A DNA stretch of 37,973 bases, taken from Spirosoma fluviale (GTDB lineage Bacteria > Bacteroidota > Bacteroidia > Cytophagales > Spirosomataceae). The stretch lies in the NCBI GenBank assembly GCA_945885545.1, contig CAMCYZ010000011.1, positions 1 to 37,973 on the forward strand. Direction: 5' to 3'. Within the stretch, counting starts at the first letter, position 1. Each line of letters starts with the position of its first letter. The notes below the pieces were generated by a model. That model made no database searches, was not told the origin of the DNA, and saw only the letters and a list, made by a program, of their open reading frames with translations. Of the stretch, positions 1,570 through 33,801 are shown piece after piece. The position numbers and the translations under genes are program-made.

Positions 1570-1767
1570 ATTTGTTTTGTTTAAAAGTTTAGATAAATAA
1601 ATATAACACCTCAAAGTTAGTTTTCCCAACAAATCTCGAAATAAAAATTGGATGAACCAAGGCAGAATATGTGGGATTGGATGTGGGATTGGACAAACGG
1701 TAATTGACATATTCAAGATAAAATATAAATATACATATCTAAGTTTAAGTATATCAGCGGTTTAAAT

Positions 1768-1775
1768 TAACTTTG
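1768..1775 (+). promoter_or_regulatory. Bacteroidota -7 box for the rluB-like gene
   Basis: TAACTTTG matches TAnnTTTG and lies 33 nt before the ATG at 1808. The -33 region about 21 nt upstream is weak (GTTTA). The rest of the 238-bp divergent gap (1570-1807) shows no gene. Confidence 0.5.
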
Positions 1776-1807
1776 CACAAAATTACAGTAGTGATATTGC
1801 AACATAC

Positions 1808-3361
1808 ATGAGAAAAAGAATTACAGAAGGTCGCAACAGCGACAGAGATTCGAGCAAAAGCTCGTTTGGCAAATCAGATTTCAAAAGAAAAGAAAGTGGT
1901 TTTAGCCCAGAAAAAAGAAGTTTTGACAAGCCATCTGCAAAAAAGGACGGTTTTTCGAAACCAACAGGTGGAAATGATAAATTCCCTAAACGAGAATTTA
2001 AACCCAACAATTTCAGTAAATCAGAACCAGGAAACGATAGATTTCCAGAGAAAGATTTCAAGCCAAATACTTATGGTAAGCCCGAAGGTGGCAATGACAG
2101 ATTCCCGAAAAGAGACTTCAAATCAAGCACTTACGGTAAACCAGAAGGTCCTTCAGAAAGATTTACGAAAAGAGACGTTGAAAACTTAGGAAACAGATAT
2201 TCTGACAGAAACTCCCCAAGAAAAGACGCCAGACCAGATGCTGCACGAACTACGGACAGATTTCCAAAGAAAGAATTCAAACCCAATAGTTACGGCAAAA
2301 CAAACGCAGGTTCTGCAGACAGTAGGTTCCCTCGCAAAGACGACCGTTTCCCAAGAACAGGAAATCGTTCTGAGGGTTTTCCGAAAAGGGAATTTGGAGT
2401 TAGAAACGAAGGTGGGTACAAACCAAGAGAAGAAAGCAGAGATGGATTTGAAAATAGAAGCGAAAGACCCAATTTCGAAAGAAAGGCTTTTGATAGAAAA
2501 GAAAATACATCAAAACCAGAAATTAGTAAATCAAACTACGGCAATAACAAAAACGCCAGACAGGCCATTCGTCCCAACTATGAAGAGGACGCACTAAAAA
2601 GTAAACTTCCACCAAAAGTTAGAACGAAAGTTGAAAGTAGTGAGACTTTTACGCCAACCATTCGTCTTAATAGATATTTGGCAAACGCCGGACTTTGCTC
2701 ACGCCGCGATGCTGATGAGTTTATAGCAAGTGGACAAATAACTGTTAATGGAGAAGTTATAACCGAAATGGGCTACCAAGTGCAAGCCACAGATGTTGTA
2801 AAATACGGTAGAAAAATATTGAACAGAGAGAAATTGGTTTACGTATTATTGAATAAACCAAAGGACTTCTTGACAACAACAGACGATCCCGAAGGTCGAA
2901 AAACAGTTATGGATTTGGTACAAAAGGCTTGTCCTGAGCGTATATACCCTGTTGGAAGATTGGATAGAGCAACAACCGGCCTATTGTTAATGACCAACGA
3001 CGGCGAACTGGCCGAGAAACTTTCTCACCCATCTAATGCCATGAGGAAGATTTATCAGGCGGAGTTGGACAGGAAAATGGAGCAAGAAGATTTTGACAAG
3101 ATTTTGGAAGGCATAGAATTGGAAGATGGAAACATAAAGGCTGACGATTTGTCTGTAATAACACCTGACCGCCAAGTAGTTGGTATAGAAATACATAGCG
3201 GCAAAAACAGAATTGTGAGGAGGATTTTTGAGCATTTGGGATACGAAGTAACCAAGTTAGACAGAACCACTTATGCTGGCCTAACCAAGAAGGACCTTCC
3301 GAGAGGAAACTGGAGATTCCTAACTGAAAAAGAGGTTATTAGATTGAAGTATCTAATTTGA
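1808..3361 (+). CDS. RluB/RsuA-family pseudouridine synthase with long repeat-rich N-terminal extension
   Basis: A 517-residue protein. The C-terminal half is a standard RsuA/RluB enzyme: an S4 RNA-binding domain (~285-331, with 'RLNRYLANAGLCSRRDADEF') and a pseudouridine synthase domain (~345-517). The catalytic motif is 'VGRLDRATTGLLL' with Asp near residue 386, and the C-terminal signature is 'SGKNRIVRRIFEHLGYEVTK'. The likely substrate is large-subunit rRNA, as for RluB. The first ~280 residues are low-complexity and very basic, rich in R/K/D/F/G/P/N, with a 20-residue tandem repeat. Long disordered basic extensions are seen on Bacteroidota RluB homologues; here it exceeds half the protein. 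It probably adds RNA affinity (inference). Confidence 0.9.
   Translation: MRKRITEGRNSDRDSSKSSFGKSDFKRKESGFSPEKRSFDKPSAKKDGFSKPTGGNDKFPKREFKPNNFSKSEPGNDRFPEKDFKPNTYGKPEGGNDRFPKRDFKSSTYGKPEGPSERFTKRDVENLGNRYSDRNSPRKDARPDAARTTDRFPKKEFKPNSYGKTNAGSADSRFPRKDDRFPRTGNRSEGFPKREFGVRNEGGYKPREESRDGFENRSERPNFERKAFDRKENTSKPEISKSNYGNNKNARQAIRPNYEEDALKSKLPPKVRTKVESSETFTPTIRLNRYLANAGLCSRRDADEFIASGQITVNGEVITEMGYQVQATDVVKYGRKILNREKLVYVLLNKPKDFLTTTDDPEGRKTVMDLVQKACPERIYPVGRLDRATTGLLLMTNDGELAEKLSHPSNAMRKIYQAELDRKMEQEDFDKILEGIELEDGNIKADDLSVITPDRQVVGIEIHSGKNRIVRRIFEHLGYEVTKLDRTTYAGLTKKDLPRGNWRFLTEKEVIRLKYLI
1973..2152 (+). repeat. 60-bp in-frame tandem repeat (3 units) in the rluB-like gene
   Basis: Residues 56-75, 76-95 and 96-115 are three units of 20 residues with the pattern GNDrFPkrdFKpntyGKpE. 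They correspond to a 60-bp DNA period. Degenerate single copies occur again further on, for example around residue 150 with 'DRFPKKEFKPNSYGK'. Confidence 0.85.
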
Positions 3362-3376
3362 TATTAATTAAATTTG
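3343..3376 (+). promoter_or_regulatory. Bacteroidota-type promoter for the 3407 gene
   Basis: A TTG-containing -33 element (ATTG, 3343-3346) is followed after 22 bp by TAAATTTG (3369-3376), a full match to TAnnTTTG. It sits across the end of the rluB-like gene and 30 nt before the ATG at 3407, so the downstream gene probably has its own transcript. Confidence 0.5.
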
Positions 3377-3406
3377 TAGAAAAATAAACAGTAAACTAAA
3401 ATAACA

Positions 3407-3955
3407 ATGGAAGAGAACAAAAAAGATATGATGGATCAAGCTGGAGACATGGCAGCTAAGGCGAAAGAAGTTGCGACTGAGAAATTAGCTGATGTAAAAG
3501 AAGATGCTGCTGAAGTAGTAGCCAATTTGAAAGAAGAGGCAACTGAGAAATTGGCAGAAGTCAAAGAAAAAATGACTGAATTGGCTGGTGAAGCTACTGA
3601 AGCATTCAATGCAGCAAAAGACAAAGTATCTGAAATGATAGATACTGACAAAATAAAAGCTGAAGCCGCTGAGAAATTGGCAGATGCGAAAGCTATGGCT
3701 GGAAACATTGCAGGCGAAGCTACCGAGGCGTTTAATTCTGCTAAAGCTAAGGTTACAGAATTTGTAAATGCTGAAAGTGTGGCTGATTTCAAAAACGAAG
3801 CTGCCGAGAAATTGGGGGATTTGAAAGGAGAGGCTGAAGAAGCTTTGAACAAAGCGAAAGATAAAGCAAACGAATTGGCTGGTGAAGCCGAAGAAGCTGT
3901 TACACAAGTGGCGGCAAAAGCAAAAGGTTTCTTTAGCCGACTTTTCGGAAAGTAA
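3407..3955 (+). CDS. Helical Ala/Lys/Glu repeat protein (LEA/apolipoprotein-like)
   Basis: A 182-residue protein without signal peptide or obvious transmembrane segment, composed almost wholly of A, E, K, D and short aliphatics. The motif E-K-L recurs at residues 25, 47, 89 and 134, and 'LAGEATEAFNaAKdKV' occurs twice with a degenerate third copy. Spacings of 22, 42 and 45 residues are close to multiples of 11, the helical period of group-3 LEA and apolipoprotein-like proteins. It ends in an amphipathic basic tail 'AKGFFSRLFGK' that could dock on membranes (inference). LEA-like proteins are linked to desiccation or stress protection, but no function can be assigned here. It has its own promoter-like sequence and a terminator right after it. 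Confidence 0.8.
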   Translation: MEENKKDMMDQAGDMAAKAKEVATEKLADVKEDAAEVVANLKEEATEKLAEVKEKMTELAGEATEAFNAAKDKVSEMIDTDKIKAEAAEKLADAKAMAGNIAGEATEAFNSAKAKVTEFVNAESVADFKNEAAEKLGDLKGEAEEALNKAKDKANELAGEAEEAVTQVAAKAKGFFSRLFGK

Positions 3956-3962
3956 GAACACT

Positions 3963-3988
3963 AAAACCCAATCCAACGATTGGGTTTT
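3963..3988 (+). terminator. Intrinsic terminator after the helical repeat gene
   Basis: A perfect 11-bp hairpin, AAAACCCAATC (3963-3973) and GATTGGGTTTT (3978-3988), with a CAAC loop. It begins 7 nt after the stop codon. Confidence 0.85.
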
Positions 3989-4090
3989 ACTATACTTTTG
4001 ATTTTTCATTTATTATTGAAAGTATAATCATTTCAATAAGAACTATTTTTTCAGTACTTATAATATTCAATTTCGCTGAAATATATAAAC

Positions 4091-4126
4091 AAAAAAAACC
4101 TCCAGAACTTTCGCTAAGGAGGTTTT
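4091..4126 (-). terminator. Intrinsic terminator for the 4144-4908 gene
   Basis: Arms AAAACCTCC (4095-4103) and GGAGGTTTT (4118-4126) enclose a 14-nt loop. The A-run at 4091-4098 becomes a U-run on the minus-strand transcript. It lies 18 nt past the stop of the leftward gene. Confidence 0.8.
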
Positions 4127-4143
4127 ACGAATTATAACAACAA

Positions 4144-4908
4144 TCAGTCAATCTTCACTTTTCTACTAACACCATCATCTCCCTGCGACACTATCACAAA
4201 AAATGTCCCTTTAGCACCTTTGCTTAGTTTGATTTGACCCACATATTCACCTTCGAAGTTCTTGGCCTCTTCTTTTGCTTTTACATTTCCCTGCAAATCC
4301 AAAACCGTGATATTCACATCTCCTGGCTTTGGAGCGTAAAACCTAATATTCAACACGTTAGTTTCAGGCTTGTTCGTAAAAACATCGATACTCCTTATCG
4401 TGGTTGGCTCCATAACTTTCTTCCATCTTTCATCAAAAACTTCCACATCAAAGTTTCTAAGCTTGTTAGGCATCCCTGCCAAATGATCCGAAAGCCTATC
4501 CATTTCAAAATGAAGTTCTTTCATTCTACCCTTCGGAAGGTTTCCTTTTCGGTTAGAATTTGTTCCACGACCACCAGAAATATTTTCGTCTTCCGACCAT
4601 TCAAAATCATCTTCTCCAATCTCTTTTACAATAACCTTTACACGCTTATCGCTCCCTTTTTTATCAATTATAACGGTATCCAATTGTCCGTCCAAAATCA
4701 TAATGTTGGAATCACCGTCTTTAAAATCAATTTCTTTCTCGGTAATTTCTACTTTACCGTTGATGCTTTTCTCAATTCTCACCTTCTTTTTACCAGGTTT
4801 GTCAGAATCCAGCACTTCTGTTTTAATTTCTTTTCTTACCTCTTTGTTTTGGGCATTGGCCATAAAAAACGCCAATGAAGCCACCGTCAATACTATTACT
4901 TTTTTCAT
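4144..4908 (-). CDS. Secreted protein with T9SS type A-like C-terminal domain
   Basis: A 254-residue protein. The start is set at the ATG at 4908 because it begins the signal peptide (MKKVIVLTVASLAFFMANAQ); ten upstream in-frame codons do not fit. The mature protein begins with Lys/Glu/Asp-rich segments (about 20-145) with no recognised fold. The last ~75 residues are a beta-rich domain of the Por/T9SS sorting type: 'NVLNIRFYAPKPGDVNITVLDLQG', a Gly-Glu-Tyr turn, 'LSKGAKGTFFVIVSQ', then a short basic end. Proteins with this domain are usually exported through the type IX system. Function is unknown; it may be surface-attached. It is a single gene with its own terminator. Confidence 0.82.
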   Translation of the reverse strand: MKKVIVLTVASLAFFMANAQNKEVRKEIKTEVLDSDKPGKKKVRIEKSINGKVEITEKEIDFKDGDSNIMILDGQLDTVIIDKKGSDKRVKVIVKEIGEDDFEWSEDENISGGRGTNSNRKGNLPKGRMKELHFEMDRLSDHLAGMPNKLRNFDVEVFDERWKKVMEPTTIRSIDVFTNKPETNVLNIRFYAPKPGDVNITVLDLQGNVKAKEEAKNFEGEYVGQIKLSKGAKGTFFVIVSQGDDGVSRKVKID

Positions 4909-5111
4909 ATAATTTTTGTTTTTTATATCAATAGACAAAATATTTTTACGAAGGTTGCATAAAAAATTACAGTGTTAATTATATTTAGTCTTAAAAAAAG
5001 TTAAACGAGCTTTGAGCAATTGTTAAGCCATGAACCTAATCAATTCCAACTATCAAAAATAGTAAAAAGAGTTTTTTTGCACCAAACGAAAAATTAAATA
5101 CTTGCAAAGAT

Positions 5112-5405
5112 ATGACAATGAGAATAGTAAAAATAACTTTTAAAGAAAGACAAAGTCGCTGAATTTTTAGCTTTCTTAGAAAAAAATAAAAGCAAAAGCA
5201 GAAATTTTCCCGGTTGTGAAACAGTAAAATACTCCAAGAAAAAGAAAACCCTGCAGTAATTATGACGCACAGCTATTGGAGGTCAGAAGTTGAACTTAAA
5301 AATTATCGTCATTCAGACTTTTTTAACTACGTTTGAGCCAACACAAAAATCCAGTTCAATGCTAAACCCAAAGCTTATTCTATGTTATCTTTGGACAAAC
5401 TTTAA
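5112..5405 (+). pseudogene. Decayed ABM-family (antibiotic biosynthesis monooxygenase-like) gene
   Basis: Reading in three pieces recovers a typical ~95-residue ABM-fold protein. From ATG 5112/5118 the frame gives 'MRIVKITFKERQ' and stops at 5160. After a frame change, 5158-5255 gives 'AEFLAFLEKNKSKSRNFPGC' followed by 'ETVKY'. After a second frame change, 5262-5405 gives 'THSYWRSEVELKNYRHSDFF' and later 'ANTKIQFNAKPKAYSMLSLD'. The family pattern of an FPGC-type core, an S-Y-W, an NYRHS and a late W-A-x-T-K is preserved. The in-frame TGA at 5334 stands where family members carry Trp, so TGG became TGA. At least two frameshifts plus one stop make it non-functional. ABM proteins act as small quinol or haem monooxygenases; the original substrate is unknown. 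Confidence 0.8.
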
Positions 5406-5448
5406 AAGTTTTCTGTTCGTTAAAAAGATTACAAAACTGTTTATCAAA

Positions 5449-5643
5449 ATGAAATACGCATTAATAATACTTTCTTTGATATTTTTAAGACCAGATTCTT
5501 GGGCTAAGGCTGTAAACCAAAGCACAAAATTGGAAGGATTTGATGGACGTAAACGGAAAAAAGACGGCAGTTATCGTAAAAAAAATCATACCTTCAAGAA
5601 ACTTATTCTGGGTAAAAGATATTGCGATTGTCCAAAACACTGA
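5449..5643 (+). CDS. Small basic secreted protein (64 aa)
   Basis: A short gene with a clear signal peptide (MKYALIILSLIFLRPDSWAK, cut near A-K-A). The mature part of about 42 residues is strongly basic, contains G-F-D-G followed by alternating R/K-rich stretches, and ends in a C-x-C-P-K-H tail. The reading frame is open upstream to 5290, but that part overlaps the decayed ABM gene, so I chose the ATG at 5449. A TATCTTTG at 5386-5393 matches the -7 box and could drive it. Its stop is 5 nt before the next gene, so the two are probably co-transcribed. Function unknown; no family recognised. Confidence 0.6.
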   Translation: MKYALIILSLIFLRPDSWAKAVNQSTKLEGFDGRKRKKDGSYRKKNHTFKKLILGKRYCDCPKH

Positions 5644-5648
5644 TTTTG

Positions 5649-6695
5649 ATGAAAAAAATATTATTTGTCTTCTTATTTTTGAATTTCACCCAGATTTTTG
5701 GCCAAAATTTCAATGAAAAAGAAGTGGTTTTTGCGGATTTGAGCGAAACATTTAAACTAAGCGGCACCTTCACTAGCCCAAAAGGCCTAAAAAATTACCC
5801 TGTAGCTGTGTTAATTTCAGGTTCGGGACAAACCGATAGAGACGAGACACTCGGCAAACATAAAATTTTCAAAGAATTGGCGGAGTATTTATCCAACAAT
5901 GGTATCGGTGTCTTGAGATATGATGACCGTGGCGGATTTAAATCTGAAGGACCAAAGACCGTGAATAGCACAACACAAGAACTCGCTCTAGACGTGGTGG
6001 CGGCAGTAAAATTTATAAAAAAAGAATTAAAAATAAAAAAAATCGGTCTGATTGGACACAGCGAAGGTGGCGGAATAGGGCCCATTGTGGCGTCAAAAGT
6101 TAAGAATTTAGATTTCTTGGTATCGCTCGCAGGGCCAGGTGTTTCGGGTAGGGAGATTTTAATTCAGCAAAACAAAGATATTTACTTAGAAGCTGGCGTG
6201 CCACTCGAACACGTTGAACATTTCATTAAAGACTTTTTTGAGCCTATGTTATCAGATGTTGTTCTTGAAAGAGACAGCACAAGCAAGGCCAACAATATCA
6301 AAAAACTGGGCGAAATGTATCAAAAAAAATATAAGGCTGAGAATTTTGTCTTGGGCATGACAACCCACAGTGCCAATATTCCTCTAATTATGAAGCAATT
6401 AAACAACCCTTGGTTTATAAGCTTCATAAAATATGACCCACAGGAATATTGGAAAAAGATAAAAATACGCACCCTTGCTCTAAACGGCGATTTAGACATA
6501 CAAGTTAACGCTAAGGTAAACCTGACGGCGATTGAAAACCAGAAAAACAAGCATATTAAAACCAAGATCCTCAAAAACCACAATCACCTTTTCCAAATAG
6601 CAAAAACAGGAAATTTACAGGAATATTACAAACTTAATGAAGGCATTTCGAAAGAAACGCTTAGGGAAATCAAAAACTTTATTATCGAAAAATAA
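5649..6695 (+). CDS. Secreted alpha/beta hydrolase
   Basis: A 348-residue protein starting at the ATG at 5649, which begins the signal peptide (MKKILFVFLFLNFTQIFGQN). The frame is open nine codons further up but without support. It has an alpha/beta-hydrolase fold: an oxyanion-type 'VLISGSGQTDRDE' strand (~53-66), 'VLRYDDRG' (~88-95), nucleophile elbow G-H-S-E-G with Ser138, a probable acid in 'LNGDLDIQV', and a probable His in 'NHNHLFQ' (near 315). This pattern matches the periplasmic dienelactone-hydrolase/BAAT-like esterase group common in Bacteroidota. It likely cleaves ester or peptide bonds; the substrate is not deducible. It is followed after 15 nt by the M1 peptidase gene. Confidence 0.85.
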   Translation: MKKILFVFLFLNFTQIFGQNFNEKEVVFADLSETFKLSGTFTSPKGLKNYPVAVLISGSGQTDRDETLGKHKIFKELAEYLSNNGIGVLRYDDRGGFKSEGPKTVNSTTQELALDVVAAVKFIKKELKIKKIGLIGHSEGGGIGPIVASKVKNLDFLVSLAGPGVSGREILIQQNKDIYLEAGVPLEHVEHFIKDFFEPMLSDVVLERDSTSKANNIKKLGEMYQKKYKAENFVLGMTTHSANIPLIMKQLNNPWFISFIKYDPQEYWKKIKIRTLALNGDLDIQVNAKVNLTAIENQKNKHIKTKILKNHNHLFQIAKTGNLQEYYKLNEGISKETLREIKNFIIEK

Positions 6696-6710
6696 ATACG
6701 CTAAAGACTT

Positions 6711-8585
6711 ATGCTTCATAAACTTACCCTCTTCCTTTTAATAGCTTTTAATGCCTTCTCGAACACCATAAAAAGTGACAGAGCGGCAAATTATGACATA
6801 AAAGCAAATTTAGACCCTATAACAAAAACCTTAAGAGGACAGCAAACACTTACCTGGACCAACAAAACCTCCAAACCAACCTCAGAACTACAGTTTCATT
6901 TATACCTGAATGCCTTTAAGGACGAGAACTCCACTTTTTTAAAGGAATCTGGCGGACAATTGCGAGGCGACAAAATGGATATCACCAAACAAAGTAACTT
7001 TGGCAATATATATTTGAGTACTCTAAAAATCAGAAATGGAGAAAATCTTTATCCTAAAATAAAATACATACAACCCGACGACCTCAACGCCGGGGACAAA
7101 ACAGTGATTCAGGTTAATTTGGGAAAAGCCATAAAACCAGGGGAAACCGTGGTGTTGGAAATGGATTTTAGAGCAAAACTTCCTAAGATCTTTGCACGAA
7201 CAGGTTGGGCAGACAACGACTATTTTTTTGTGGGACAATGGTTCCCAAAAATCGGAGTTTTAGAAGAAAACGGAAAATGGAATTGTCATCAATTTCACGC
7301 CAATACAGAGTTTTTTGCCGACTTTGGCAACTATAATGTGCAGATAACACTACCTCAGGAGTATATTATAGCAGGAACTGGCGAAAAAAAATCCGAAGTG
7401 AAAAATAAAAACAAAAGCAAAACCATCAGTTTTGCTGCCACAGATGTGCATGACTTTGCTTGGACTGCCTCTCCGCATTACAAATATCTGGAACTGAAAC
7501 ACAGAGGCATAAAATTAATGGTCTACATGCAGCCTGAGCACTATCACATGGCCCATAGGTACTTTGAATCTGCGAAAAACGCCATTGATTATATGGAGAA
7601 AAGGGTTGGTAAATACCCACACAGCACCTTGTCCATGATAGACCCTACTTTGTCTGGTTCGGGATCGGGTGGCATGGAATACCCCACCCTTATCACTTGC
7701 GGAAGTTACTGGGGAATGGGTTCTTGGGGGAAGTTCCAAGAAGTGGTAACCATTCATGAGTTTGTGCATCAGTACTTTCAGGGCGTGGTGGCTAGTAATG
7801 AGTTTGAGAATTCGTGGATGGACGAAGGCTTTACGCAATACTTCGAGGGACGCATAATGGACGAATATTACAAAGGTCAACAAGCCAATATTTTTGGATT
7901 CGCCATACATGACATGGCGTCATCGCGAGCAGGTTATGTAATGATGGACAATCCAAAAATGACCGAAATAAGAAGAAATGCATGGACTTATCCGGGTGGA
8001 ACTTATGGCATAATGACCTATCAAAAAACGGCCACTTGGCTTAAAACACTGGAGGGTTTTGTAGGAATCAAAAACATGGACGCCATCATGCAGACTTACT
8101 TTTCGAGATTCAAATTTAAACATCCACAACCGCAAGATTTTATCGATATCGCGAATAAAATTGCTTCAAAAAACACCAAATATGCTAATCTTGATTGGTT
8201 TTTCAAACAAGTTTTGTTTGAGGCACCCGATTGCGACTATGCCGTAAGCGACCTCGTGAATGCTCCCAGAAAACAAACGCCTTATGGCTCCTTTGCGGTC
8301 AATCGCTTGGGTGAAATGACTTTCCCAACAAAAATAAAAGTAGTTTTTGACGACAAAAAATATCTGCTTATCAACTGGTCAGGAAGTGAGCGTTTTAGAA
8401 AATTCAGATTCAAGAAAAGAATAAAATATGTGCAGCTCGACCCAGAATATATCAATTGGATGGATTTGAACATGATAAACAACTCCGTAGCAGCCAAAGA
8501 ACCCACCAAGGCAGCAGCGAAGTATGGAACTAAAATGCTTTTTTGGGTACAGCGAATATTGTTTTTCTTTGGTGGATTAGGGTAA
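6711..8585 (+). CDS. M1-family metallopeptidase
   Basis: A 624-residue zinc metallopeptidase with an N-terminal signal sequence (about residues 1-20). The M1 beta-sandwich domain comes first. The catalytic domain has the substrate-binding 'GSGSGGMEYPT' loop in place of GAMEN, then the zinc site H349-E-F-V-H353 with the third ligand Glu372 in 'WMDEGF', the exact H-E-x2-H-x18-E spacing. The ERAP-like C-terminal domain of long M1 enzymes is missing, as in shorter bacterial members. A hydrophobic stretch near the end (~605-620) could be a membrane anchor. It is probably an exported aminopeptidase, in line with the hydrolase gene 15 nt upstream. Confidence 0.92.
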   Translation: MLHKLTLFLLIAFNAFSNTIKSDRAANYDIKANLDPITKTLRGQQTLTWTNKTSKPTSELQFHLYLNAFKDENSTFLKESGGQLRGDKMDITKQSNFGNIYLSTLKIRNGENLYPKIKYIQPDDLNAGDKTVIQVNLGKAIKPGETVVLEMDFRAKLPKIFARTGWADNDYFFVGQWFPKIGVLEENGKWNCHQFHANTEFFADFGNYNVQITLPQEYIIAGTGEKKSEVKNKNKSKTISFAATDVHDFAWTASPHYKYLELKHRGIKLMVYMQPEHYHMAHRYFESAKNAIDYMEKRVGKYPHSTLSMIDPTLSGSGSGGMEYPTLITCGSYWGMGSWGKFQEVVTIHEFVHQYFQGVVASNEFENSWMDEGFTQYFEGRIMDEYYKGQQANIFGFAIHDMASSRAGYVMMDNPKMTEIRRNAWTYPGGTYGIMTYQKTATWLKTLEGFVGIKNMDAIMQTYFSRFKFKHPQPQDFIDIANKIASKNTKYANLDWFFKQVLFEAPDCDYAVSDLVNAPRKQTPYGSFAVNRLGEMTFPTKIKVVFDDKKYLLINWSGSERFRKFRFKKRIKYVQLDPEYINWMDLNMINNSVAAKEPTKAAAKYGTKMLFWVQRILFFFGGLG

Positions 8586-8987
8586 ATATGCCACCAAAGT
8601 TATAGGAAACAAATGAAGCAAAAGCATTTGTCAAAAAACTAAAATTTATTGTACGCAAATTAAGGCTTTAGAAAAATACTTTAAACAAAATCATTTTAAC
8701 TGCCAAGCCAAAAGTATCAATTATTGTGCTGAGCCCAAAAGTTGAGTAATTGATATTTGCATAGAAAATCTATTGCTTAAGTTTAAAACTATATATATTT
8801 TCCCCTCTAAAAATAGCCTTTTGAAATAAACTTGACAATATTACCCAATTGAACTCACTAGCCTAATTCCAATAACTTTTGATACAAAAACATTAGCTTC
8901 CGAATAATTTGATGCCGTTAATATCTATTTGAATTTACAATATTATCTTTGGGAAGAAAAAACTTTAAGTGGGCCAAAACCCAAACT
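8586..8987. other. 402-bp intergenic region without a gene
   Basis: No convincing coding stretch is visible. It holds a weak hairpin right after the M1 gene (ACAAATG 8609-8615, CATTTGT 8625-8631). It also holds an inverted repeat TATCAATTA (8715-8723)/TAATTGATA (8747-8755) with a 23-nt loop, extendable to ~12 bp with a G-T pair, and the promoter box at 8944-8951. Base composition is strongly AT-rich. Confidence 0.6.
8944..8951 (+). promoter_or_regulatory. -7 box for the protein-glutaminase-like gene
   Basis: TATCTTTG matches TAnnTTTG and lies 36 nt before the ATG at 8988. No good -33 element at the usual distance. It argues against the alternative TTG start at 8949, which would fall inside the promoter. 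Confidence 0.5.
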
Positions 8988-9830
8988 ATGAATAGTCAAC
9001 AAGAATATCATCAATTATTTAATACCAAACCGCTTATTCCATACCTTCAAGTTGTTGAATATAATCAACGTCAGCATATTTTTGACCTGATTGTAGCTGA
9101 AAACATTGAGTATAGATACCTCAACGGATCATGTGAAGATCGTACGCACTTGATTTGCTTATTGCTCAAAAAAGCAGGTTTTGACTCTGGGAAAATATGG
9201 AACTTTGCCCCAGCTCGCTTTACTTTACTTTCCAATGAATTGTTTCGTATAAAGGATCCCTTGGGTATTTCCGATCCACTTTTTTGGGGTTTTCATGTAT
9301 CGCCGTACATACTTTCTTACAACCAAAACGGAGACTTAGAAACCCTGATATTTGATTTATCTTTTGACTCGCAAAAATTCTTGTCTGTAGCCGAGTGGCA
9401 GGCAGAAATGAACTGCCCAAGAGCCCTATACCTGCAAACCGACCTTGAAAACTACTTGTTTTACTCTATTGAAAGTTACTCTTTACGCAGTGCTAAAATC
9501 GGCAATAATCCTGTGTACAACATTCCGGCTGCTCAGCCTTCTATCATAACGGGAGATTTTTGGAAATTAGCTCCAGAAGAAACCTTAGTACAAAACGGAC
9601 TGGCTATCAACGACTTGGCCATGCATATCTACAACACAAAATCAAAAATGAATGATGCTGAACAAAAATATCTTTCAGAAACACTAACCAACATCGACTG
9701 GCTAGATGGATTTATTTTTTGCCCAAAATCGCCTGAAATATCAGAACAACTCCATGCCGAATTGATTGGTTTTTATAAGCAGCGATTTGAGTATTGGGAA
9801 AACAAAATTATCGAACTTTCTGGTGTATGA
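8988..9830 (+). CDS. Protein-glutaminase-like cysteine hydrolase, leaderless
   Basis: A 280-residue protein with no signal peptide or membrane segment. The N-terminal half carries an apparent Cys-His-Asp triad: Cys49 in 'NGSCEDRTHLICLLL', His103 in 'WGFHVSPYI', Asp123 in 'LIFDLSFD'. This order, with a G-x-H-V strand and an I-x-D-L/P-S strand 20 residues later, is that of protein-glutamine glutaminase (Cys41, His82, Asp102 in the mature Chryseobacterium enzyme, as I recall it), which deamidates protein-bound glutamine. The Cys-His gap is 13 residues longer here. The C-terminal half (~150-280) is unrecognised. Known enzymes of this type are secreted with a propeptide; this one has none. The start at ATG 8988 is preferred over TTG 8949. 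Assignment is by motif only. Confidence 0.65.
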   Translation: MNSQQEYHQLFNTKPLIPYLQVVEYNQRQHIFDLIVAENIEYRYLNGSCEDRTHLICLLLKKAGFDSGKIWNFAPARFTLLSNELFRIKDPLGISDPLFWGFHVSPYILSYNQNGDLETLIFDLSFDSQKFLSVAEWQAEMNCPRALYLQTDLENYLFYSIESYSLRSAKIGNNPVYNIPAAQPSIITGDFWKLAPEETLVQNGLAINDLAMHIYNTKSKMNDAEQKYLSETLTNIDWLDGFIFCPKSPEISEQLHAELIGFYKQRFEYWENKIIELSGV

Positions 9831-9897
9831 GTTTATAGAAAATCCACAAAATTTGAAGTTCCTGCTAGTCTGAAGACTCAGCACAGCATCTTTAAAA

Positions 9898-11187
9898 TCA
9901 TTCATCCACTGCCGCAAAAACCATTTGTCTGAAAAGTGTAGAAGTTCTGTCCTCCCCTATTCTTTGGGTTTGTTTCATTAGTACGCCAATGATTTTAGAG
10001 TTCGGGTCTGCAAAGTAGGCGGTATTAAAATATCCACCCCAATCGAAGGTGCCTTCTGAGCCGTTTCCGCCTTTGCCTTCACCTTTGGCTTTTACCAATC
10101 CGAAAGCCAAACCGTGTCCCGTAGCACTTTTGTCTCCACCCCAAATATCGCCCAATTGGTCAGCCATTATGGCTTTTATGGTGGTTTTACTTAAAAAACG
10201 CCTGCCGTTGTATTCACCTCCATTTACATACATTTGCAAAAACGTGGCGTAATCTTTGGCCGTAGATGAAAGCCCAGCTCCGCCGCTGTAGAAAGTTTTG
10301 GCTCCTTTGGCTGGATAATCTACATCATAAAAAGTATCCGTAAAATGAACCCACTTATTGTCTTTTTTGGTATGCACTTTTACCAATCTATCAGCCTTGG
10401 AAGATGGCAAATAGAAATAAGTATCACTCATGCCCATCGGCTCAAACAAATTCTTTTGCAAAAACTCATCGAAAGTTTGACCTGAAACCACCTCTATCAA
10501 ATGTCCCAAAACATCTAATCCTTCACTGTAAATGAATCTCTCACCAGGATGGGCATGAAGCGGAAGTTTGGCCAATTTCCTTATGTTATCACCGATTTTC
10601 ACTGGATTAGTAGTGAAAAGGTCCACAATTCCTGCTTTCTTGTAAATGGCCTTCATTTTTTCGTCTCCATCTATTACGCCATAACCAAGGCCTGATGTAT
10701 GTGTCAGCAAATGACGGATAGTAATCTCTTTATCAGCAGGTTTGGTCGTATAAGTAGAGTCCGCCATTCTAAACTTATCCAAAACCACGGGATTCTTAAA
10801 TTCAGGAATATATCTCGAAATAGGATCATCCAAAGTGAATTTTCCTTGCTCCCACAGCATCATGATGGCCGTAGAAGTGATGGCTTTTGACATAGAAGCT
10901 ATTCTGAAAACATGGTCATTTTTCATCACCACTTTATTAGGCACATCGGCGTATCCAAAGGCTTTTTGGTACACTATTTTGCCATCTTTTACTATTAAGG
11001 CAGTAGCCCCCGGAATAGTCTCATTTTTGATGGCTTCGGCCAACATATCCTCAATTCGCTTGATTCTTTCGGATGACATTCCAACATTCTCTGGTGCGGA
11101 ATCTTTAAGCGGGGCACTGATTTTGAGCGATTTGGTTTGAGCAAAAGATTGAAGTGCGACAAACAAAAGGAGAAGAAGTTTTTTCAT
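9898..11187 (-). CDS. Secreted serine hydrolase, beta-lactamase/class C fold
   Basis: A 429-residue protein with a signal peptide (MKKLLLLLFVALQSFAQTKS). It has the class C beta-lactamase/esterase set: S98-M-S-K101 (nucleophile and general base), a Y-S-E in 'RFIYSEGLDVLGHLIEVVSG' in place of Y-x-N, and an H-G-L-A-F-G segment late in the chain replacing K-T-G. 'HLLTHTSGLGYG' is the typical family strand. The divergences from K-T-G and Y-x-N favour an esterase or D-aminopeptidase-like enzyme over a true beta-lactamase. It is monocistronic and divergent from hisB. No terminator is visible in the 67-bp gap to the rightward gene ending at 9830. Confidence 0.9.
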   Translation of the reverse strand: MKKLLLLLFVALQSFAQTKSLKISAPLKDSAPENVGMSSERIKRIEDMLAEAIKNETIPGATALIVKDGKIVYQKAFGYADVPNKVVMKNDHVFRIASMSKAITSTAIMMLWEQGKFTLDDPISRYIPEFKNPVVLDKFRMADSTYTTKPADKEITIRHLLTHTSGLGYGVIDGDEKMKAIYKKAGIVDLFTTNPVKIGDNIRKLAKLPLHAHPGERFIYSEGLDVLGHLIEVVSGQTFDEFLQKNLFEPMGMSDTYFYLPSSKADRLVKVHTKKDNKWVHFTDTFYDVDYPAKGAKTFYSGGAGLSSTAKDYATFLQMYVNGGEYNGRRFLSKTTIKAIMADQLGDIWGGDKSATGHGLAFGLVKAKGEGKGGNGSEGTFDWGGYFNTAYFADPNSKIIGVLMKQTQRIGEDRTSTLFRQMVFAAVDE

Positions 11188-11227
11188 GTTTCTGAGGTTG
11201 ATTTTTAGAATATAAACGGTCTAATTG

Positions 11228-11268
11228 TAAAGATAATTTTAAAAAGACTAATTCTAGGCTTATTTTTG
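11228..11268. promoter_or_regulatory. Divergent promoter region between serine hydrolase and hisB
   Basis: Rightward, TATTTTTG (11261-11268) matches TAnnTTTG and lies 15 nt before the hisB ATG. Leftward, TATCTTTA (minus strand, 11228-11235) has one mismatch and lies about 40 nt before the serine hydrolase ATG. No clear -33 elements on either side. Confidence 0.4.
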
Positions 11269-11283
11269 CAAAAAATATAACAG

Positions 11284-12405
11284 ATGAAGAAAGTCCTTTT
11301 TATAGACCGCGACGGTACCATAATCGTAGAACCACCCATAGATTTCCAAATAGATTCTCTCGATAAGCTTGAATTCTTGCCTAAAGTAATCTCCAATCTA
11401 AGAAAAATATCAGAAGAGACAGACTTTGAACTCGCCATGGTAACTAACCAAGACGGCCTAGGAACTGACTCATTTCCAGAAGAAACTTTTTGGCCAGCAC
11501 ACCAGAAAATGATGAATCTCTTGGAAGGGGAAAACATCCTGTTCGACGAGGTTTTTATAGACAGAACTTTCGAACACGAAAACGCCCCAACCAGAAAACC
11601 GAGAACTGGACTTTTGACCAAATATTTTGAGGGAGAGTACAACTTGGCCAATTCTTATGTTTTGGGAGATAGACTTACGGATATGCAATTGGCGGCAAAC
11701 TTGGGTGGCAAAGGAATCTTTATTGGAGAAACTTTGCCCGAATCTGCCACTGAAGAACAAAAAAGTGCTACAGTTTTGGTCACCAAAGACTGGGACAAAA
11801 TATATGAATTCTTGAAACTTCCTGAGCGTATAGCCGAGGTAAAAAGAACCACCAAAGAGACCGATATTTATGTTAAACTAAACCTCGACGGAAAAGGTAA
11901 ATCACAAATAGAAACCGGACTGGGCTTTTTTGACCACATGCTTGACCAACTAGCCAAACATTCGGGTGCAGACCTAACCATCACCGTCAAAGGAGACTTA
12001 CACATAGACGAACACCATACCATTGAAGACACTGCTTTGGCATTGGGCGAAGCATATTTGGTGGCCCTTGGCGACAAAAGAGGCATCAACCGTTACGGAT
12101 TCCTTTTACCCATGGACGAGTGCCTATCGCAGGTAGCTATTGATTTTTCAGGCAGACCCTGGTTGGTGTGGGATGCTAGTTTTAAAAGAGAAAAAATAGG
12201 CGAAATGCCCACCGAAATGTTCATGCATTTCTTCAAAAGCTTCTCGGATACCTCAAAATGTAATCTAAACATAAAATGCGAGGGAGACAATGAGCACCAT
12301 AAAATCGAATCGATTTTTAAAGCTTGGGCAAAAGCCATAAAGATGGCCGTGCAAAGAAATATCAAAGATTTGGACGCTATGCCCAGCACGAAAGGTACTT
12401 TGTAA
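11284..12405 (+). CDS. hisB: Bifunctional histidinol-phosphatase / imidazoleglycerol-phosphate dehydratase
   Basis: A 373-residue fusion with two histidine biosynthesis activities. Residues 1 to ~170 form a HAD phosphatase with the nucleophile motif '[13 protein letters not shown]' and a later '[16 protein letters not shown]', giving histidinol-phosphate phosphatase. Residues ~180-373 are imidazoleglycerol-phosphate dehydratase, with '[20 protein letters not shown]', the metal-binding '[16 protein letters not shown]' and a later '[19 protein letters not shown]'. Both active sites look intact. No other his gene is in the window, so it is separated from the rest of the pathway, at least locally. 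A -7 box lies at 11261-11268. Confidence 0.97.
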
Positions 12406-12549
12406 GCAAATCAAATAGTAAAATATTTTAAGAAAAATATATTGTTTGGTTCATTTCTTACTGATTTTGCACAAAAAAACCTTATTTTGCAAAATATTTA
12501 TGTCGCTTTTCAGTTAATAACGCAAAAAATAAATTAGACCCATCAAAAT

Positions 12550-30845: not shown

Positions 30846-33773
30846 TCAATTAGGACAATTTTGGATTTTTGCAGAAAATTTCACGCCAGAATCGACCATA
30901 AATCCAGGACTGAGAATAATAGCATTGGCAGCACTATACTGCACATTGTTGTTCGGCAGAATGGTATTGCTTGCCGTAATTGTATTGCTACTGTTAAAGT
31001 TTAAAGGATTGATTCTCGAAGTCAAGTTGTCAGCTGTCGGAGCTAGAACCAAATTACTAGTGCAATTGGGTATGACTTTCACTGTGATGTTGTTTGAGTA
31101 CACGTAGCACTGTTGACTTGCACAGTATGCATAATAACTATCCGTATTAGTGGGACTAAATGACAAGTTTGTTGAGTGACTATTTGAAAAGCTCCAATTT
31201 AGCGTACTTGAAGCATCACAAGCCGAAGAAACAAAATTCACGATAGTATTCTGATTTATTACATTTTTATCAGCAGTAATACTCGGTGTAATTGTTGGTT
31301 GGTTAACAATTCCTAAGGTTCGGTAACTTTCATCTAAGCATCCCGGTAAAGCGGCTCCCACTCTGTAACGAATATAAAAATATAGATAGGGATCATATCT
31401 GTTGGCAGTAATATTACTAGTAAAGAATTCACCAGTAATAGCATTTACAGTGGCCGTTGGGCCTTCTATTTGGGCAAACTCTCCACCCAGGGGAACTACG
31501 TTAATTGGAAAGTAACTACGATTTACACACAAAAAAGGTTCTAATTGAAGATAATCAAAATTTAAACTAACTGTACTTACCGTGTTATTAACAATCATCG
31601 ATTCATTTCCTACAATATCAAAAGCCTTTACCCCAAACTGAATGGAATTCGCAGAACTTAAACCCGTTATGGTGTACGTATTTTGAGAATCAGAAATCGT
31701 ATCAACTTTGACCCCATTCTTATAAATATAATACCCCCCAAGAGCTTGATCATCAGTAGCGTGTGTCCACTGAAAAGAAACACACTTGGTCAAGGTGTTG
31801 GTAGCTACAAGATTTGAAATAACCGAAGGTGCCATTGTATCACCCAATGAACAAAGAAGCCTTGCATCGGTCCATACCGCACGATTACAAGTCGTATTTG
31901 ACCCAACAGGCTCTACTTTTAACCTAATTGAGCTGTAAGCAAAAATATTAACGTTTACTTCTTGTAAAGCTGTATTTCTGTAAATAGTTGGGCTCGTGTA
32001 AAGCAAGGTTTCATTGCCATAAACTTTAAAAATAACTCCACCAGTGTTATCACAAGTGTTAGATACATCATCACTAATACCTATAAATGACCTAAACTTA
32101 TAAAATTGACCACTTGGAATTTGGTATTTTATTTCTGAGTTGTTAGCCACTCCGATTCCCTTGACATAGCTCTGACCTTTCAGTACGATTGCCGCCCCGT
32201 CTCCATCTCCAGAATTTCCGTTGGTTTTGTTCAATTCAATAGGACCGAGACCGTTTGATGCTGAGACAAATTTCAGGTCTGATAAATAGGCATTGGCCGT
32301 ACAGGAACTACCGTTATTAGCCAAAAGTAATGCTTGGTTGACATTTACTTGGCTGCTGATCTGCTGATTACCGTTTGAGGTGGTTACCCAACACCTGTAA
32401 GTTCCCGAACTGACCGTTAAGGAGTTAGATGTACCAAAACTTGAACCACCAAAGCTAAAGTCTCCGCTGACCCATTTGTAAGAAGTGTAGCCCGAAGGAA
32501 CACTCAAAGTAACTTGTGTAGAATTTAGGTAACTCACAGATACGGTGGGCGGTGTATTGGCCGGAATTGGATTGGAGTTGCTGAAGAATGAAGTATTTAA
32601 GTAGCTTGTCCACGCGTCTGCAAGATAAGAGAGCCCTACAGGTGCCAAAAAATGAACATCCTCAGCATCCCTAGAATTTGCTAAAGTAGCGTTTCTAATA
32701 TTATCTGTCTCTGGGCCAGCAAAGACTTGAGAAGTTCCTGAAATAACATTATTTTGTGCATTTGTTATATTTGAATTAAAATTGCGATTAAAATAAGAAA
32801 CCCTCGCCACAACCCAAGGAAGATTAGGAGCAAAATCGGACCGCGATTTAGTTATAACAGAAGTCAAGTCTGCCTGATATGCTGAGGCAGATGTACTCCG
32901 AAATGCATCAGACTCACCTTGATGCCATAAGATAGACCTTGCACCGAACATTGAATTATAGTAATTCAACCCTTTTTTAAAGAAAAAATACGGATTGGTA
33001 CTTACGTATGTACTAGAATTTCCAGAGATAAAATTTGGATTATCAGTATTCTCCCCTCCTAAAGAACAAAAAGGTTCATTTGTTAATGCATGAATGGTTG
33101 ATGAACCGTCAGAAGATTGTTTCCAGTTATAAACACTAGAACCAGAAGCCCCAGCATTAAAAAAAGCTACTGGAAAACCAGTAATTCCAACTAAGTTATC
33201 TCCAAGCCTTCCATAGCACCAGGCATCACGACCATTTATGCCTGGTTTAACTGTGCCTGTTAATTGCTGTAAAACTGGAAAAGGAATTTCTAAATTACTA
33301 CAATACCTTCCATTATTGTGTGATACAACTTTTTCAGAGGTAGCACCTAAATATTGACTATCAACATGTCCCTGAGCATTTGACTGCCCAGCGATCATAA
33401 AAACATCGCCAATACCTACTCTATTTACGGTAGTTGTTTCCAAGACGACCCCGCTTTTAACGGTTCGAATCACTAGGGTGTACCAACCTGCCGGGACATT
33501 ACTAAATTGTCCTTGAAAATAACCCATGGCTGGATTTTCTTGAATTATGGACCAATCAAAACCTGAAATTGGACTGCCATTTGTAGGATTAAGTAACCTT
33601 GCTTGTACAGAAGTGGCCAAAGGTTGTGAATATGTCCCGCTTATAATAAGATTGGCCTGACTGGTACTGTTACGCTGATAAACAGCATTGTTTAGTGGAT
33701 GTGATACCGTAATTTGTGCAGAAAGTTTGCTGAATAATAGAAGTAATAATACTATTTTAAAAGAAAATTTCAT
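30846..33773 (-). CDS. Multidomain secreted sialate O-acetylesterase-like protein
   Basis: A 975-residue secreted protein starting at ATG 33773, at the signal peptide (MKFSFKIVLLLLLFSKLSAQ); the frame runs four codons up to a TTG that I do not use. An N-terminal beta domain (~20-115) is followed by an SGNH/DUF303 esterase (~120-395) with nucleophile Ser131 in 'MIAGQSNAQGH', 'ILWHQGESDAFRSTSA' and a D-V-H in 'AEDVHFLAPVG'. Next come an Ig-like part, an NPCBM-like domain (~495-645), a fibronectin type III domain (~655-740) and beta modules. The tail has the 'APTADNLTSRIN...AANAIILSPGF' pattern of the '3-coathanger stack' repeats. It probably removes acetyl groups from glycans outside the cell. 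Confidence 0.82.
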   Translation of the reverse strand: MKFSFKIVLLLLLFSKLSAQITVSHPLNNAVYQRNSTSQANLIISGTYSQPLATSVQARLLNPTNGSPISGFDWSIIQENPAMGYFQGQFSNVPAGWYTLVIRTVKSGVVLETTTVNRVGIGDVFMIAGQSNAQGHVDSQYLGATSEKVVSHNNGRYCSNLEIPFPVLQQLTGTVKPGINGRDAWCYGRLGDNLVGITGFPVAFFNAGASGSSVYNWKQSSDGSSTIHALTNEPFCSLGGENTDNPNFISGNSSTYVSTNPYFFFKKGLNYYNSMFGARSILWHQGESDAFRSTSASAYQADLTSVITKSRSDFAPNLPWVVARVSYFNRNFNSNITNAQNNVISGTSQVFAGPETDNIRNATLANSRDAEDVHFLAPVGLSYLADAWTSYLNTSFFSNSNPIPANTPPTVSVSYLNSTQVTLSVPSGYTSYKWVSGDFSFGGSSFGTSNSLTVSSGTYRCWVTTSNGNQQISSQVNVNQALLLANNGSSCTANAYLSDLKFVSASNGLGPIELNKTNGNSGDGDGAAIVLKGQSYVKGIGVANNSEIKYQIPSGQFYKFRSFIGISDDVSNTCDNTGGVIFKVYGNETLLYTSPTIYRNTALQEVNVNIFAYSSIRLKVEPVGSNTTCNRAVWTDARLLCSLGDTMAPSVISNLVATNTLTKCVSFQWTHATDDQALGGYYIYKNGVKVDTISDSQNTYTITGLSSANSIQFGVKAFDIVGNESMIVNNTVSTVSLNFDYLQLEPFLCVNRSYFPINVVPLGGEFAQIEGPTATVNAITGEFFTSNITANRYDPYLYFYIRYRVGAALPGCLDESYRTLGIVNQPTITPSITADKNVINQNTIVNFVSSACDASSTLNWSFSNSHSTNLSFSPTNTDSYYAYCASQQCYVYSNNITVKVIPNCTSNLVLAPTADNLTSRINPLNFNSSNTITASNTILPNNNVQYSAANAIILSPGFMVDSGVKFSAKIQNCPN

Positions 33774-33801
33774 AACTTTTCTCAATACAAAGGCTTTACA
33801 T

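Follow-up and report, generated by a model that had tools for sequence, protein, structure and literature searches.

The gene at positions 8988-9830 of the DNA analysed here, from the freshwater-type bacterium Spirosoma fluviale, belongs to a leaderless branch of the protein-glutaminase (PG) domain family. To judge from profile and model comparisons, its 280-amino acid product is most likely an intracellular glutamine amidohydrolase acting on protein or peptide. Note that, throughout, the window refers to the whole stretch of 37,973 nucleotides. The relevant features are as follows.

8944..8951, + strand: promoter-like TATCTTTG box, 44 nt before the ATG, resembling the Bacteroidota -7 element
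8988..9830, + strand: gene for the 280-aa protein-glutaminase-like protein, with the ATG at 8988 and the stop codon ending at 9830
9075..9410, + strand: stretch matching PF18626 Gln_deamidase_2 (9.9e-15, 56.2 bits in a separate search)
9132..9134, + strand: codon of Cys49, the predicted nucleophile, invariant in 19 sequences, aligned with Cys42 of mature PG and first residue of a predicted helix
9294..9296, + strand: codon of His103, the predicted base, invariant in 19 sequences and aligned with His83 of PG
9354..9356, + strand: codon of Asp123, the predicted third triad member, invariant in 19 sequences and aligned with Asp103 of PG
9411..9827, + strand: C-terminal half, past the Pfam match, with a family-conserved GLAIN motif, Y263 and W270 (from the alignment of 19 and predicted models)

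Residues 30-141 of the protein match Pfam domain PF18626 (Gln_deamidase_2) with an E-value of 2.2e-14 and 54 bits, where the cut-off is 25. The domain was found in all 19 aligned family members, and a paralogue in the same genome scores 47.6 bits. The NCBIfam model for protein-glutamine glutaminase (NF040782, EC 3.5.1.44) gives 15.9 bits against a cut-off of 250. On these scores, the protein is a member of the PF18626 domain family that falls outside the characterised PG enzyme group, NF040782. A match between residues 2-44 and a T4 neck protein (21.3 bits, below the cut-off of 25, and present in 2 of 19 members) was taken as chance.

A sequence-only reading of the window had placed Cys49, His103 and Asp123 of this open reading frame in a PG-like triad. 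The residues are indeed in place and, like H54, K69, W71, W100 and V104, are invariant in the alignment of 19 sequences; the H54 position is Gln in a more distant member. A single-protein search of PDB sequences gave nothing credible, and only family profiles got to PG. Specifically, a profile of the 19 relatives reaches PG at an E-value of 5.2e-4 and sets C49, H103 and D123 onto Cys42, His83 and Asp103 of the Chryseobacterium proteolyticum enzyme, the triad given for mature PG in one figure legend (PMC3498931, Fig. 3). The two proteins also share a His five residues and a Lys 20 residues after the Cys, a Trp three residues before the catalytic His, and a Val directly after it. The spacing between His and Asp is 20 in both, in agreement with the earlier claim, and that between Cys and His is 54 here compared with 41 in PG.

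The predicted structure points the same way. A model of the 280-aa protein, made with 16 aligned sequences, has a mean pLDDT of 58.5; blocks spanning residues 101-140 reach 84-91, the block containing C49 (41-50) has 53, and most of 151-280 is poor. In this model, C49 begins a helix, H103 is in a strand, and D123 comes just after the strand that follows. Of 741 PDB chains aligned, five PG entries rank first, with Z-scores of 12.4-13.0, and the next is NTAQ1 at 6.3. The model of an Emticicia aquatilis homologue (L035), built with 15 sequences, is better, with a pLDDT of 79.6 and a pTM of 0.81. Here, PG entries score 12.7-13.8, followed by NTAQ1 (8.5) and SseI (8.2). Foldseek gives the homologue five hits with E-values of 0.001 or less; every one is PG, and the TM-scores, taken over the length of the homologue, are 0.33-0.44. 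Identity in the structural alignments with PG is 16-20%. The 280-aa protein is therefore predicted to adopt the PG fold, and the resemblance first noticed in its motifs extends to domain, profile and model.

The C-terminal half had been described as unrecognised. This holds for Pfam, with the match ending at residue 141. Structurally, however, similarity to PG extends further, and the half is conserved in the family. It is thus probably not an unrelated add-on. Since alignment of the L035 model to PDB entry 2ZK9 covers residues 13-222 of 266, with 155 aligned, much of the C-terminal half probably belongs to the PG fold as well; what is left, including a long helix, is probably additional to it.

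Members of the family also weakly match Transglut_core (8 of 19, best 0.047), Tox-PL-2 (5 of 19, best 1.2e-4) and NTAQ1 (PF09764; 1 of 19, 0.0035) and, because of this, the reaction could differ from that of PG. Thus, the same fold and triad might serve transglutaminase-type cross-linking, acyl transfer, or hydrolysis of a small-molecule amide or peptide bond. According to PMC3498931, the fold with Cys-His-Asp triads spans glutamine deamidases, transglutaminases, proteases, N-acetyltransferases and PNGases. Our structural matches at lower Z include transglutaminases, vasohibins and arylamine N-acyltransferases. We consider a different reaction unlikely, as PG is far ahead in both profile and structure comparisons (Z of 13.0 versus about 4 for transglutaminases, and 13.8 versus 5-6 for vasohibins).

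The protein was said to have no signal peptide or propeptide, and this was borne out. The reading frame is open for just 22 codons before the ATG (302 aa from stop to stop), and for 11-12 codons in four close orthologues. The account of classic PG in PMC6132073 gives a 21-aa signal and a 114-aa pro-sequence. Because of the stop 22 codons upstream, an in-frame prepro region of the PG type is excluded for this gene. Consistent with this, hydropathy over 12 residues peaks at 0.90 within residues 1-45. Window proteins whose N-termini resemble signals have values of 2.29-2.74 in three cases and 1.88 in a fourth, and four cytosolic ones have 0.38-1.39. In the family, 23 of 24 members score 1.22 or less and one (L007) scores 1.88, figures that rest on assigned starts when some members, such as L002 and L008, have longer open frames. 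The box upstream of the gene has the form TA(2-3)TTTG and resembles the consensus of the Bacteroidota -7 element. Of 24 family members, 21 have such a box in the 60 nt before the start, 17 of them at 22-29 nt and four at 44-45 nt. In 1000 shuffles the mean was 1.9 and the maximum 7 of 24, a contrast that is overstated because the sequences had been viewed before the pattern was picked and because closely related members are not independent samples. For ten members from outside the window's family, at most 64 residues are in frame before the Cys, with starts unsure as five of the ten lack an ATG at the expected position. We also observed a short GGGC(C)AAAACCC motif immediately before the ATG (window positions 8970-8987), which four Lacihabitans-type orthologues (L003-L006) retain in slightly altered form.

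Logically, a secreted proenzyme could appear leaderless if a wrong start or frameshift hid its leader. Classic PG has the signal and pro-sequence described above (PMC6132073), and some relatives have longer upstream frames, including L008 and L002, where a GTG-started ORF is 38 residues longer and contains hydrophobic residues. The hydropathy peak of L007 could be read similarly. Against this, frames close within 22 codons here and 11-12 codons in the close orthologues, and 21 of 24 members carry the box 22-45 nt upstream of the ATG; in L002, it is inside the longer frame. A missed leader is thus extremely improbable, and for this gene is ruled out by the closed frame. We conclude that the gene is leaderless. 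It is also under purifying selection: dN/dS is approximately 0.03-0.05 in comparison with three orthologues, and 0.02-0.09 with the halves taken apart, while the comparison with a fourth is saturated.

The nearest named relatives are from Lacihabitans soyangensis (order Cytophagales), at 91%. Of 222 genomes from the window's family, 23 have a homologue, as do 12 of 291 in an order sample, four of the 12 being from that same family. In a phylum sample there are six among 395 genomes, namely the genome itself, two with full-length proteins, two with short relatives (at least one having a signal peptide) and one with a weak match containing internal stops. Members of the protein family share one architecture, and its distribution is patchy. 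Known members had been described as secreted proenzymes. This is correct for characterised enzymes, but the phylum sample of PF18626 includes other proteins without an evident signal peptide. The genome itself has two PF18626 matches, the 280-aa protein and a 30%-identical copy at C72. The second copy (L002, positions 1408-2202), of the GNCHN type, sits between nitroreductase-like and polyphosphate-kinase-2-like genes, named by reading.

Subgroups differ in the motif around the catalytic Cys, which is GSCED in the 280-aa protein and GNCHN/GNCHC, ANCHN or GGCQQ in others. In an unrooted tree of 43 rows, six window-type proteins form a single clade (100/100). The tree does not set the leaderless subgroups off as a single group from PG: the PG-type branch falls among them, with deep forks unsure and long branches meeting. 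Cysteines number 2-9 in 34 family rows compared with 11-14 in six PG-type rows; a low number suits the reducing cytosol. Four PG-type proteins from another family (L095, L096, L097 and L098; approximately 317-325 aa, 11-14 cysteines) have a long region before the Cys and, read from the first Met, no hydrophobic N-terminus (hydropathy 0.88-1.15).

The gene's neighbours in the window were named by reading of sequence. An M1-type peptidase gene is upstream, and a convergent gene for a beta-lactamase-like serine hydrolase is downstream. No neighbour was shared across subgroups in 37 regions, 35 of which had the gene in one BLAST cluster; the comparison took ORFs of 90 aa or more, so smaller partner genes would escape. 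ABC-type transport genes, also identified by reading, are downstream in four Lacihabitans-type orthologues and absent from the window. The other neighbours that recur between genera are, as far as they were identified, widespread genes, for example those for pyruvate kinase, NAD kinase, M17 aminopeptidase, a DegT-type aminotransferase and YceI. In regions from one genus (g9, named records mostly Emticicia), with clusters named from the L035 region, a SusC gene is nearby in 11 of 11, a PhnX-like gene in 10 of 11, and Phn-HD in 6 of 11. The E. aquatilis region itself (L035, positions 1692-12443) is a phosphonate-degradation neighbourhood with SusC, Phn-HD, TIGR03364, PhnX-like and DUF5690 genes. 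A phosphonate link for the whole family was rejected, since PhnX-like, Phn-HD and SusC genes are absent from the window's region and most other subgroups, and the arrangement was taken as local synteny. It could carry meaning within genus g9. Elsewhere in the window are a 182-aa Ala/Lys/Glu-rich repeat protein, LEA-like by reading (positions 3407-3955), and, on the minus strand, a 979-aa protein that begins with a signal-like stretch and looks multidomain by reading (positions 30846-33785).

Gene content also bears on whether the protein is an effector that acts in other cells after injection. Glutamine deamidases of the same fold are injected or secreted elsewhere, SseI and Pasteurella multocida toxin (PMT) being among our structural matches. 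The lack of a leader, the patchy distribution, and the Tox-PL-2 matches in 5 of 19 members (best 1.2e-4) would fit. In addition, PMC10318531 treats PF18626 proteins as protein glutaminases and describes type IVb secretion genes in their vicinity; none was noticed in passing in the regions compared here. Such neighbourhoods would favour effectors elsewhere in the PF18626 family. For the family studied here, the contractile sheath domain PF04984 is present in 0 of 23 carriers, versus 27 of 199 non-carriers, in the window's family, and the type VI secretion protein VipB is in 0 of 33 carriers. Note that this search covered contractile machinery only. No neighbour is shared across the 37 regions and no conserved adjacent partner, as expected for a toxin with an immunity gene, was found across subgroups among ORFs of at least 90 aa. 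With neither sheath nor VipB in the carriers searched, we rejected the injected effector, a role we think improbable. Similarly, a defence role was set aside given no PADLOC match for three proteins, which also counts against an effector. Phage origin was rejected with no PHROGs match for the 280-aa protein or L035, and no hit with an E-value of 0.001 or less for the L035 model in a viral structure library. The paralogue L002 has two weak PHROGs matches (3.3e-4 and 0.023). Of the three possibilities raised by the sequence-only reading, a cytosolic deamidase fits best; a toxin-like effector gains no support from injection genes or common neighbours.

A further possibility is a bacterial N-terminal-glutamine amidohydrolase, similar to NTAQ1, feeding an N-degron pathway. 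With both models, NTAQ1 ranks second among the structural matches (Z of 6.3 and 8.5). It is also the best viral-library hit of the L035 model (E-value 5.4e-3), and its profile, PF09764, matches 1 of 19 members (0.0035). Furthermore, the genome has two matches to ATE_C, and this domain occurs in 22 of 23 carriers compared with 94 of 199 non-carriers in the window's family. Outside that family, however, ATE_C is in 5 of 12 carriers (5 of 10 without two short relatives, G727 and G761) versus 25 of 49 controls, the latter counted as non-carriers since they are absent from the order-sample carrier list. Because the association is not repeated outside the family, it probably reflects shared ancestry, and ATE_C matches may include other acetyltransferase-fold proteins. 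Moreover, PG exceeds NTAQ1 by 5-7 Z units and the 280-aa protein has no PF09764 match up to an E-value of 10. We therefore put aside the N-degron role, which gained no independent support from co-occurrence and seems rather improbable. One of the ATE_C-type genes (L082, positions 1315-2091, at C129) encodes a 258-aa aminoacyl-tRNA-protein transferase-like protein and, by reading, is beside murG-like and ftsQ-like genes.

Our preferred reading, to which we give roughly even chances, is that the gene encodes a cytosolic papain-fold amidohydrolase of PF18626, deamidating glutamine in a protein or peptide within its own cell. By homology, Cys49, activated by His103 and Asp123, would attack the side-chain amide of the glutamine, releasing ammonia and leaving glutamate behind. 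Since the propeptide that restrains secreted PG is absent, specificity for the substrate would probably restrain the enzyme instead, perhaps by way of the family-specific C-terminal end. We infer the catalysis, glutamine as the target group, action on an own-cell protein and the role of the C-terminus; the substrate is probably specific. The PF18626 score, triad register, PG as top structural match for two models, leaderless gene, few cysteines and dN/dS count for this reading. Counting against it are the NF040782 score, far below its cut-off, the weak model outside the core, modest TM-scores and patchy distribution.

More tentatively, scattered Bacteroidota may possess an intracellular deamidase dedicated to protein glutamine, which modifies one or a few proteins of the same cell. 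It would be a propeptide-free PG held in check by its family-specific C-terminal end. To our knowledge, CheD is the only well-known self-directed protein-glutamine deamidase of bacteria. If true, the self-editing deamidase would be a second kind, unrelated to CheD. The PGs in the publications consulted are exported and first produced as proforms with little or no activity, and no leaderless PG subfamily was seen in the open-access literature searched. Conservation of the same catalytic domain inside the cell would imply tight substrate specificity or another control. Secreted PG-type deamidating enzymes are used in the food industry, and the family would offer a tractable route to both a new bacterial protein modification and a scaffold, free of any propeptide, for a useful class of enzymes.

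Among known systems, the deamidase effectors SseI and PMT also have a papain-like fold with a Cys-His-Asp triad. Unlike in the 280-aa protein, with a His-Asp spacing of 20, the spacing is 15 in the residue numbers that PMC3498931 gives for SseI (216/231) and PMT (1205/1220). A further difference is that no contractile injection machinery (PF04984 or VipB in carriers) was found with the gene. NTAQ1 (PF09764) is a cytosolic deamidase whose fold may be similar, and the second structural match. The 280-aa protein differs in scoring a lower Z to NTAQ1 than to PG, and in having no PF09764 match. The closest likeness is to PG (EC 3.5.1.44) of C. proteolyticum (PDB 2ZK9, 2KSV, 3A54 and 3A56) and to FBPG (8Z3I), with which it shares a PF18626-type domain, the triad register and the best structural match. 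Unlike PG, it has no signal or propeptide, fewer cysteines, a Cys-His spacing of 54 rather than 41, and a family-specific C-terminal end. Finally, the chemoreceptor glutamine deamidase CheD, which belongs to a different family, would be comparable in function, as a deamidase of proteins of its own cell.
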